A stretch of DNA of 64,000 nucleotides, taken from positions 41,824,466-41,888,465 of the forward strand of contig OY997661.1 of assembly GCA_963921795.1 (NCBI GenBank), given 5' to 3'. The notes under the pieces are model-generated. The model did not search any database. It had not been told where the DNA came from and saw only the letters and a program-made list of their open reading frames with translations. Below, in pieces: positions 19,418 to 63,550 of the stretch. Position 1 is the first letter of the stretch. Each line of letters starts with the position of its first letter. The translations under genes and the position numbers were made by a program. The stretch comes from Nannobrachium achirus (Eukaryota; Chordata; Actinopteri; Myctophiformes; Myctophidae).

Positions 19418-20303
19418 ATGGCCTCCGGGATCCAGCTGTGGTTCCTAGTACTCCTGGTTCTGGGAGCTGCTGGGACCTCGGACGCGTGGTTTTGGAACAA
19501 GGATCCGGACCCGACAACACCGGCGACGACCACGACCGCGCCGGGACCCGGGAAAGGCGCGGGAGGACCCGCGCCGCCCAAAGGAGGCAAGAAAAAGGAC
19601 GGCGGCGACCTGGCCGGGGTCGGGAAGGAGATCATCGAAGTGGCCAGCAGCATCCGTAAGTCTGTCGAGAAGTGGGATGAGAGCCCGACGCCGGTCTGGA
19701 CTACTAACAGAGGAGGACTGGGAGACCCCGAGACCCCTAACACCACGGGTAATGCAGCAGACGGGTCCAGAGGGGTGGGAGGAGGGGGGGAGGAAGGTTC
19801 CGGGGCAGGGGACGGGTCCGGGTCCGGGGTCGGCGCCCTGGACGTCTCGGGCGCGCTTAATTCCGTCCCCGGCCCTGACCCGCCGCCGTCGTGTCTCCCC
19901 ACGCCCTCCGATTGGCCCATTTGCTCGGGCCGGGGGCACAGGCGGCTCGCGCTGCCCAACTTTTTCAACCACACCTCTTTGGAGCAGGTGGGGGCGGTGC
20001 TGCGGCAGTGGGCGTGGCTGGCGAGGGCCGGGTGCCACCACGGCGCGGAGTGGTTCCTCTGTCTCCTGTTGGCGCCCGGCTGTGGCGAGGCGCCGCCGCC
20101 TCCCGTCTCACTGCCGCCGTCGGCCCGGGATATCGCCGCCGCTGCCCCCCGCCTCCTGCCCTGCCGCAGCTTCTGCCATGTCCTGCAAGACAGCTGCTGG
20201 GTGGCGCTGAAGGACGGGCGGCTCCCCGCGGAGTGCCACCTCCTGCCCGACAGGGAGCTGGAGCCCGGGTGGCCGCCCTGTGTGTCAGTTAGTAACCGGA
20301 AAG
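19418..20303 (+). CDS. col18a1: Collagen XVIII exon: signal peptide, N-terminal region and Frizzled domain
   Basis: This encodes the N-terminus of the long form of collagen XVIII, a secreted basement-membrane heparan sulfate proteoglycan; in known orthologs the long form adds a Frizzled domain that can bind Wnt. The start at 19418 has a good context (GGAATGG) and is followed by a hydrophobic signal peptide (residues 1-23, core LWFLVLLVLGAAG). An in-frame ATG at 19379 precedes it and would bury the signal. Residues 24-158 are low-complexity Pro/Gly/Thr-rich, with an amphipathic stretch EIIEVASSIRKSVEKW and acidic Ser-Gly repeats that could carry glycosaminoglycan. Residues 159-288 form a Frizzled cysteine-rich domain with all ten cysteines (159, 169, 206, 215, 222, 249, 253, 260, 273, 288) and the LPNFFNHTS motif. 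Sequons are at Asn108 and Asn184. The exon ends AAAG|GTAACT in phase 1, matching the exon at 50106. The frame stays open past the donor to 20380, which I read as intron. Confidence 0.9.
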
Positions 20304-50105: not shown

Positions 50106-50518
50106 AAGAGAGTGGCGTCTCTCTGCTCCAGTTGATCGGGGACCCTCCGCCGAATGAAATCACCAGGATATTCGGGCCGGGCGGCGCTGCCGCCTACCTC
50201 TTCGGGCCCTCGGCGGCGGCCGGCCAGCCGGCGCTGGCCCACGTCCCCAACCCGTTCTACCGCCACTTCTCGCTGCTCTTCCACATCAAGCCGTCGACGG
50301 ACGACCAGTCTGTGCTGTTCGCCATCACCGACGGCCCGCAGAAGTTCATGTACGTCGGCGTCAAGCTGAGCCGCGTGGCGCCCGGCGGCACGCACCGCCG
50401 GCTGCACTTCTTCTACACCGAGCCCGACTCGGAGGAGTCGTACGAGGCGGCCGCCTTCGACCTGCCGCGCCTCACCGAGACCTGGACGCGCTTCTCGCTG
50501 TCTGTCTTCGAGGACCAG
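50106..50518 (+). CDS. col18a1: Collagen XVIII exon: first part of the TSPN / laminin-G-like domain
   Basis: This encodes 137 full codons plus the split codon of the N-terminal thrombospondin-like (TSPN) domain shared by all collagen XVIII isoforms, secreted and deposited in basement membrane. The acceptor CATCCTACAG|AAGAG enters in phase 1, which fits the Frizzled exon. Recognisable motifs in order are SGVSLLQLIGDPPP, YLFGP, NPFYRHFSLLFHIKP, VLFAITD, GVKLS, FFYTEPDS and RFSLSVFEDQ. The strand order of a laminin-G fold is intact. The exon is strongly GC-rich against its AT-rich surroundings. It ends at CAG|GTGACC in phase 0. If the next intron were retained, translation would stop after 11 residues at 50552-50554. 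Confidence 0.92.
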
Positions 50519-50523
50519 GTGAC

Positions 50524-51351
50524 CAGTGTTGGGGAAGTTAATTTGAAAGCGTAACTTGTACAGTTACAAGTAACTCACCATGGCAGTAACTTGATCAAGT
50601 TAAAGTTATACCCCTGGAGAAATGTAACTTATAAAGTTTCAAGTTACATAGAAAAAGTAACTTGAGTAATAAAATATAATATCCTACAAAAAAAGTCACA
50701 TGCCAGCAGAAATTTGCCTCTCAACTGAGTTTTATGTTTTGTTTCAAAAAGGTTGACATTTTCTTTAGTAAACATCTGTGTTCCTTTAAAGGAGTAGTTC
50801 ACCCCCAAAATGACTTTTTTTCTATTGATTACCCATGCCATGGAGAGTAGAGTTCAATAATATTTTTTGGTTTTTGTCACCCTAAGACACAAATTTGATT
50901 CGAGTAAATTTACCCCCATTGATTCCGGATTTCGAAACGGGTCCCCATCCGGAACGAATGGGGGTACATTTATTGTTATCACATTTTTGTCTTAGGAATG
51001 TGACAAAAACCAAAAAATATTATTGAACTCTACTCTCCATGGCATGGGTAATCAATAGAAAAAAAGTCATTTTGGGGGTGAACTACTCCTTTAATAAAGT
51101 TAAAAAAATAAGAAAATTATGATCTGTTGAGGACATTTGATCGTCAATCTTAACAAAACTTAAATGTAAAATTATAACTTCGCATGTAACTTCTTGTAAC
51201 TTGTAACTTGAGCCAAAAATTACCCAAAAGGTATCTCAGTTACTTGACGAGTTACAGTAATATGAATGTAACTCAGTTACCAGCAAGTTACAGCAAAATG
51301 TAACTTAGTTACGTAACTCAGTTACATGTAACTTTAACTTCCCCAACACTG
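50524..51351. mobile_element. Family R hAT-like element forming an intron
   Basis: Perfect 18-bp terminal inverted repeats, CAGTGTTGGGGAAGTTAA and its complement, are flanked by the perfect 8-bp duplication CAGGTGAC (50516-50523 and 51352-51359). The body is rich in GTAACTT / AAGTTAC words. A TTAA-flanked foldback (family S) is nested at 50790-51090. No transposase is encoded. Confidence 0.92.
50790..51090. mobile_element. Family S TTAA-flanked foldback with perfect arms
   Basis: It is flanked by TTAA at 50786-50789 and 51091-51094. Arms of about 91 bp, beginning AGGAGTAGTTCACCCCC, are perfect complements as far as I can read. That implies recent insertion or strong maintenance. A left-end fragment of the same family starts at about 58404. 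Confidence 0.85.
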
Positions 51352-51354
51352 CAG

Positions 51355-51489
51355 GTGACCTTCTACCAGGGCTGCGACTCGGTGCCGCAGGTGGTGAGGT
51401 TCGAGCGCTCGCCCGACGACATGGAGCTGGACCCCGCGGCGGGCATCTTCGTGGGCCAGGCGGGCGGCGCCGACCCCGACCGCTACCAG
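51355..51489 (+). CDS. col18a1: Collagen XVIII exon: second part of the TSPN domain
   Basis: Forty-five codons in phase 0, beginning VTFYQGCDSVPQ and ending GIFVGQAGGADPDRYQ. The AGGADPD motif is typical of collagen XVIII. The donor is CAG|GTAACG. Together with 50106-50518 it makes 548 nt of continuous TSPN coding sequence. I expect this to correspond to one exon in other vertebrates, but I cannot check that here. Confidence 0.92.
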
Positions 51490-51509: not shown

Positions 51510-52110
51510 CTCCATAATACAGTATATGGAGTTCCCTGATGTCATCAATATTAACTCATTCCCCGCCAGGCCCGATAGTCCCGAGAATATGCTCATGTCC
51601 CTCCCCGCCAGGCCCGATAGTCCCGAGAATTTCCCGTTTTTGAAAAAAAAAAAAAAAAAACTTTAGTAGGCATGATAGCAATCTCGAAATTTCATGTTTA
51701 ACCCCCATAGCAACCCCATCTTTCAAACATGGCAGCCATCTTTTGTTTACATTTTAGGAAAACATAATGGCTGCTATTTCATGAATGCCTGAACGGATTT
51801 CCATTCGGATTTTTTTGTTTGAAAGCTGTGAGCAATGTGCACACACGTGGTGCATGATCTAGGCATGGACATGACATTATCAGTGCACTATGAATTACAT
51901 GGAAGTCTATGGAGACAGATGGCATATGAAAGTACGTAGGTATTTGCAAATGGCGGGGCATGTGTTAATGATGCCCTGTTAGAGAGATCTCTGTGACGCC
52001 AGGGGGAACAAATCCCTTTTATGCCCATATTATGGAGAACCCTGATGTCCACATCACTGTGGCGCGACCTCGCCCTTTAGGGGGAGGTCGCCCTGAGGCG
52101 TCTTACTAGT
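51510..52110. repeat. Dispersed repeat shared with 17375-17585, with TTAA-type insertion
   Basis: It shares ATGGAGTTCCCTGATGTCAT and GAGGCGTCTTACTAGTAAT with the earlier copy. An insertion at about 51554-51966 has ends CTCATTCCCCGCCA and TGGCGGGGCATGTG and lies between TTAA-like sites. Confidence 0.6.
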
Positions 52111-60095: not shown

Positions 60096-60176
60096 GGTGC
60101 CATCGCCATGTTGAAAGTGGTGGGGAACCCTCAGGCCGCGGAGCGCCTCTGCGACGACGAGGACGACCCTGATGCT
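60096..60176 (+). CDS. col18a1: Collagen XVIII exon: end of TSPN domain and acidic linker
   Basis: Twenty-seven codons, phase 0 at both ends: GAIAMLKVVGNPQAAERLC followed by the acidic DDEDDPDA. This continues directly from ...DPDRYQ and matches the known collagen XVIII pattern of a short hydrophobic strand, a cysteine and an acidic run. The acceptor is a TG repeat ending GCACGTGCAG rather than a pyrimidine tract. The donor is GCT|GTGAGT. Confidence 0.85.
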
Positions 60177-63468: not shown

Positions 63469-63550
63469 ACCACCCCTCCGTCTCGAGTTCAGCCGGTGCC
63501 AGAGCCCAGCCTGACATCATCAAAGGGCTCCAGAGTCTCAGCAGGCTCAG
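63469..63550 (+). CDS. col18a1: Collagen XVIII exon: Pro/Ser/Thr-rich linker
   Basis: Twenty-seven codons plus one base, beginning TTPPSRVQPVPEPSL and ending SAGS. The composition fits the variable linker between the TSPN domain and the first collagenous stretch. The acceptor GTCCCACAG enters in phase 0. The donor CAG|GTATGA leaves in phase 1. The collagenous exons lie beyond the window. Confidence 0.75.

Follow-up and report, generated by a model that had tools for sequence, protein, structure and literature searches.

An insertion of the maize element Ds reportedly formed an intron de novo in a plant mutant allele, and is said to have been spliced through signals at the boundary of element and duplication. 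A broader class of such events is known as introners, which are described as DNA-transposon insertions that make introns, with splice sites drawn from the target duplication and/or the element. In some introner families the duplication or the adjacent exon provides both splice sites, in whole or in part, according to the portions of that survey dealing with splice-site origin (Gozashti et al., 2022; PMC9860276). In fishes, intron 3 of the notothenioid gene slc26a2 is portrayed, in the sections devoted to it, as arising from NTE-1, an element whose inverted ends and direct repeats of 4 nt contain the gt-ag, and as having later been lengthened by a nested second element (Torii et al., 2025; PMC12357937). 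Novel introns have also been described in the melanocortin (MC) receptor and other GPCR genes of ray-finned fish, where the relevant part of the account dates them to ~320–190 million years ago (PMC3151243), and one passage of a review names transposon insertions as a possible source of novel introns, with a reference to a separate paper on mammals (PMC3899998).

Recent intron births are seldom found with their evidence intact, least of all in vertebrates. At the col18a1 locus described here the duplication, the inverted repeats, the source family and the uninterrupted homologous exon can all be read. Taken together, these features make it likely that the exon has gained a new, functionally spliced intron from a hAT insertion, with the two copies of the duplication supplying the splice sites.

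An interrupted TSPN exon in col18a1

In the 64-kb window (the whole stretch of DNA analysed; all coordinates are its own and all features lie on the plus strand unless stated otherwise), we read the col18a1 TSPN exon as spanning 50106–51489 and as broken at 50519–51354. Its left part (50106–50518) ends in the codons GAG GAC CAG, while its right part (51355–51489) supplies 45 codons and ends CAG|GTAACG. The break is framed by two copies of an 8-bp target-site duplication, CAG|GTGAC (CAGGTGAC), at 50516–50523 and 51352–51359, of which the left is the proposed 5′ splice site and the right provides both the proposed 3′ splice site (its CAG) and the resumption of the exon (its GTGAC). Between them lies an 828-bp non-autonomous hAT-like element (50524–51351) with ends CAGTGTTGGGGAAGTTA. 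The putative phase-0 GT-AG intron, predicted from the sequence, would thus be 836 nt long (50519–51354) and comprise the element together with a single duplication copy.

The ends of the element are complementary at 18/18 positions, and its terminal 18-mer, searched at up to three mismatches, has only these two sites in the 64-kb window; shuffled windows averaged 0.06 matches, and none of 100 gave two. The first-pass annotation had described an 828-bp element with perfect 18-bp inverted ends between exact target copies, and this description holds for the copy at hand, although the repeat of the family as a whole is 17 bp. The extra base pair is due to one private change: the 18th base of the terminal repeat (position 50541) is A here and C in 38/38 other copies compared, a private C-to-A.

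When 50106–50518 and 51355–51489 are joined they form a single open frame of 182 codons, and with the CAG|GT of each duplication copy as the cutting point the frame reads FEDQ|VTFYQ across the join. This agrees with the earlier proposal that the left donor and right acceptor remove the element and exactly one target copy. Such exact restoration is, however, no independent evidence, as any duplication containing AG|GT yields it automatically if both copies are cut alike. What sets col18a1 apart is the position of AGGT within the 8-bp duplication, in sense orientation and in a coding exon. The exon and its insert also differ in base composition, with GC contents of 0.68 and 0.73 in the left and right parts of the exon vs 0.33 in the element. 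It is practically certain that this exon was formerly continuous and then received the hAT-like insertion.

In this form of col18a1, the first coding exon (19418–20303), recognized by its ORF, a Fz profile match and tblastn with Liparis COL18A1, encodes a putative signal-peptide-like start, an acidic/Pro-rich stretch and a Frizzled (Fz) domain (PF01392 in the joined col18a1 model, E 7.2e-12), and ends AAG|GTAACT. Beyond the TSPN exon come the next col18a1 exon at 60096–60176 (GAIAMLKVVGNPQAAERLCDDEDDPDA, also the GAIAMLKVVGNPQAAE exon) and a further one at 63469–63550 (TTPPSRVQPVPEPSLTSSKGSR..., the VQPVPEP exon), followed beyond the window by 13 collagen Gly-X-Y segments that reach ~104 kb in window coordinates. 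This exon order matches that of proteins from Hucho, Liparis, Scleropages, Ameca and Knipowitschia. The TSPN exon by itself had no match in Pfam or PDB sequence searches, and its assignment to col18a1 is based on named homologues, which also point to a fish as the source. A protein from the same genome was not found among the 35 COL18A1-like proteins returned by a long-query search, the best of which was 71% identical. Could the locus be an unexpressed duplicate or pseudogene? We regard this as very unlikely, given that the Fz exon, the TSPN exon, the two further exons and the 13 Gly-X-Y segments are all open as reading frames across ~85 kb. Separately, inspection by eye revealed a direct repeat of TCCCCGCCAGGCCCGATAGTCCCGAGAAT just 3′ of the TSPN exon, at 51560–51588 and 51602–51630, with starts 42 bp apart.

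A large and recent family of hAT-like elements

A search of the genome (1.66 Gb in 564 contigs) found 1010 exact TTCCCCAACACTG ends (499 + 511), compared with 27 for a reversed-pattern control. Right ends were scored for 40 of 743 first-look candidates, the col18a1 copy included, and the other 39 are 94–98% identical to the right end of that copy. Among the loci retrieved, and counting only those with a paired end, we identified 33 distinct copies (the col18a1 copy and locus L076, discussed below, among them) in which the two duplication copies agree at seven or all eight positions. These are 452–1012 bp long: 31 fall at 452–692 bp, and the others are 828 bp (the col18a1 copy) and 1012 bp.

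The terminal inverted repeats of hAT transposons begin CAGNG. The col18a1 insertion has CAGTG ends, CAGTGTTGGGGAAGTTA at both termini and an 8-bp duplication matching at 8/8 positions, features which support its placement as a non-autonomous member of the hAT superfamily, within a large recent family. With a private change defined as a difference from at least 80% of family copies, this copy has three in 257 bp (against 29 right ends) and one in 146 bp (against 38 left ends), or ~1%, so that the insertion appears to be recent, though not brand new. Thus the suggestion of a young hAT-type element, made initially from the window alone, gains support from the 8-bp duplications, the CAGTG ends, the hundreds of copies in the genome and the small number of private changes.

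The element itself contains a nested foldback element (50786–51094, no strand assigned) with 95-nt perfect arms, which sits at a TTAA-type site and belongs to an abundant family. Among the other family loci compared, foldback sequence inside the hAT copy was seen only at L002 (contig C3), where the junction is different. Dating the col18a1 insertion by its nested foldback was rejected as unsafe, because the L002 copy carries the same foldback family near the same place with other junctions; the foldback could still have nested before the hAT insertion.

The exon is continuous in nearly all listed homologues

A homologue search matched 135 proteins; the figures that follow rest on the 120 listed, in which orthologues and paralogues are pooled and most entries are unnamed and come from assembled public reads. 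By BLASTP, 119 of these 120 span the junction, the exception being P0103. Among the spanning homologues, 113 go on with V after the last codon of the exon, as would be seen in read-through of its 5′ splice site, five enter the next exon and one stops at the exon end. In 59 of the 113 V-tailed homologues the sequence also extends upstream of the TSPN exon, by one residue or more. Judging from these tails, the V-tailed homologues would be genomic frames of one uninterrupted exon, and they include a turtle, Chrysemys picta (P0084). When all three protein searches are pooled there are 168 homologues, 166 of which cover the junction region (P0128, which stops elsewhere, and P0103 do not). Residues 130–148 are ungapped in 144 of the 166 and gapped in 22. 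In 21 of the latter the gap lies three residues before the join or eight or more after it, and in the remaining one, from plaice (P0167), the whole 130–148 stretch is missing.

The single exception complicates the picture. P0103 is a 138-residue frame on a 612-bp contig, 70% identical to the window gene, that leaves homology right after DDQ|V, continues as NTSCF and then ends. Its closest relative is 72% identical, with no near ones found, its tail is unlike the hAT end, and its kinship with the window gene comes from a quick tree in which the fork is unresolved. P0103 may have been interrupted independently at this proto-splice site, or its break may be an artefact of the contig. As it breaks at the identical codon boundary, the position of the insertion is perhaps not unique to this element.

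This record is the one observation that lends something to the idea of an older intron, predating the transposon and now merely occupied by it, since another animal may be interrupted at the same place. Nonetheless, we consider an older intron highly improbable, the least credible of the alternatives weighed here: 119 of the 120 listed homologues, the turtle record included, lack the interruption, and coding sequence adjoins both copies of the duplication, which means that the target was continuous at the point of insertion. It is on this second ground that we rejected an intron that was already in place and was later entered by a transposon. The distribution among homologues, which agrees with the earlier expectation that the intron would be absent elsewhere (P0103 apart), suggests that the TSPN intron is new and supports an ancestral exon that lacked it.

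Splice signals at the insertion

We scored the proposed splice sites with a U1 sequence and a donor frequency matrix. The donor, CAG|GTGACC, forms a U1 duplex of −8.1 kcal/mol, within the range of four further donors presumed for this gene (−6.5 to −9.1), and is both the strongest U1 match among the GT sites scored in 50106–50600 and in the top 1.2% of GT sites over 114 kb. The frequency matrix gives it 80.7, which places it fourth among the five donors compared (74.7–85.4). Its weakness is position +5, where it has C instead of the usual G.

The acceptor region (51329–51354) is largely a product of the element. The terminal repeat at the 3′ side reads ...TTTAACTTCCCCAACACTG and contributes TTAAC, a branch-like motif whose A lies at −18, together with a C/T tract, while the final CAG comes from the right copy of the duplication; that the transposon's terminal repeat provides the acceptor pyrimidines, as initially supposed, is thus supported by the position of both the C/T tract and TTAAC within the repeat. 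The tract is mixed (14/20 pyrimidines, and 8/12 adjoining the AG), and there is no AG between −35 and −2. Because 51329–51354 is without private change relative to the family, copies with consensus ends would carry the same latent acceptor. As predicted from these scores and motifs, the splice signals at the insertion are favourable.

The sequence of events that we propose is as follows. A non-autonomous hAT-family transposon would have entered the single TSPN exon at the proto-splice site CAG|GTGAC, and the resulting 8-bp duplication would have set CAG|GT on each side of the element. The left copy may then serve as 5′ splice site, and the CAG of the right copy, behind the TTAAC and pyrimidines of the terminal repeat, as 3′ splice site, such that the spliceosome could take out the element along with one target copy and leave the protein unaltered. 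With no change to the protein, the element could have stayed in place as a new phase-0 intron. That it is efficiently spliced in vivo, has been fixed and is close to neutral is what we infer from this scheme.

A different outcome of the same insertion has some weight, namely that the assembly caught a young disruptive allele, heterozygous or rare in the population, from which the element is removed badly or not at all and whose effect is borne thanks to another allele or a col18a1 paralogue. If the element were retained, read-through would reach a stop 11 codons past the Q. The element is young, and with only ~1% departure from the consensus a young allele that is null or polymorphic would also be expected to show an intact frame. 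Moreover, a quick, unfinished tree divides the homologues into two large groups, and some bear the name chain a, which leaves room for a paralogue that might make up for the loss of col18a1. On the other hand, the splice signals are correctly phased and placed exactly where they are needed, the neighbouring col18a1 exons are open, and the duplication is of a rare spliceable type, with AGGT following only nine of the 1010 strict ends. On balance we find a disruptive allele rather unlikely, if still the most serious competitor to the birth of a spliced intron.

Other family copies at AG|GT sites

The nine strict ends just mentioned have AGGT within the first eight following bases, a pattern that occurred at none of the control ends. 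They reveal no target preference: 9/1010 is 0.9% vs a naive expectation of 5/256, or 2.0%, and hence shows no enrichment for AGGT. All nine were examined, and a matched duplication at the far end was found in two, the col18a1 copy and L076, both of which lie at coding junctions.

L076 (C12:2432446, locus positions 1005–1521) is a 501-bp copy with an 8/8 CAGGTGAC duplication. Its left duplication copy coincides with an apparent natural intron end, tttccccttgCAG|GTGAC, and its right copy opens an exon, VTAAFYSNMYCSVLLMSV..., that matches residues 137–216 of PDB chain 9d4z_R, the proteinase-activated receptor 1 (E 4.6e-26), and also matches 7tm_1. The element thus apparently lies exactly on the 3′ splice site of a PAR1 (F2R)-like GPCR gene, and with one copy at the intron end and the other opening the exon, its insertion would have doubled that site. 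Splicing may go to the new acceptor, or it may begin at the old one and treat the adjacent GT as a recursive splice point; the protein would be unchanged both ways. By the position-wise composition of 31 other duplications, a second CAGGTGAC duplication would turn up among some 504 copies with a probability of ~0.02, a rough figure. The identical duplication at col18a1 and L076 is suggestive only.

For the other seven loci (L074, L075, L077, L078, L079, L081 and L082), the DNA examined offered no left end whose duplication matches (best 4/8), no coding flank was recognizable by eye in three frames, and on both grounds they were dropped as intron cases. The nine AGGT-type ends thus comprise one exon-internal case (col18a1), one case at a splice site (L076) and these seven. 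Exact CCCAACACTG-CAGGT ends occur at eight more places in the genome and may belong to looser family relatives (C1:56842925, C6:16066349, C7:49193100, C8:65904463, C10:6562136, C10:24759733, C11:58948466 and C19:50902532).

A more general, and to us doubtful, idea is that this hAT family acts as a low-level introner in a vertebrate. On this equally tentative view, the element would carry at either end a ready 3′ splice site (branch-like TTAAC and pyrimidines) in need only of a CAG from the target. If this were true, a genic insertion with sense-strand AG|GT in its 8-bp duplication would become a silent intron, and one landing on an existing 3′ splice site, as the PAR1-like copy does, would yield a longer intron with an AG|GT recursive-splice point. 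Selection would spare just such coding insertions, and more examples would be expected in the genome. Since hundreds of family copies occur in one genome, the silence of a transposon landing on AG|GT is directly testable with RNA.

Comparison with known systems

The col18a1 insertion shares with the maize Ds case, as reported, a hAT-superfamily element, an 8-bp duplication and splice signals at the element boundary. The maize example is said to be a mutant allele, whereas col18a1 is a natural animal locus whose predicted protein is unchanged.

The nearest counterpart among animals is slc26a2. Both cases concern a teleost and a transposon-like element with inverted ends inside a coding exon, both have gt-ag within the repeats of the inserted element, and both have a second element nested inside the first. 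In contrast to col18a1, the described NTE-1 begins tgt and ends aca, has 4-nt direct repeats and forms an intron common to the five species treated in that part of the report (PMC12357937), whereas the col18a1 element has hAT-like ends and an 8-bp duplication, each copy of which would supply a splice site. Introners, as characterized in the portions of the survey cited above, are families that recur as introns (PMC9860276); here, by comparison, there is one exon-internal intron and one insertion at a splice site. The MC receptor introns resemble the present case in occurring in fish, in proto-splice sites that are mostly kept and in the repeats found in some of the new introns, but differ in that no element-plus-duplication boundary is seen for them in the available part of that account (PMC3151243).

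Searches of open-licence papers turned up neither this col18a1 case nor a vertebrate case of hAT type. The initial claim of a new vertebrate example stands as regards a recent hAT insertion and is less novel than supposed in view of the slc26a2 precedent in teleosts, as presented in the sections on that intron (PMC12357937). The making of an intron by a transposon through its own repeats or duplication is already a known mechanism, of which col18a1 is a very clean further case. To the one teleost precedent found in the open-licence literature, it adds a hAT-type case with a candidate splice site in each copy of the duplication.
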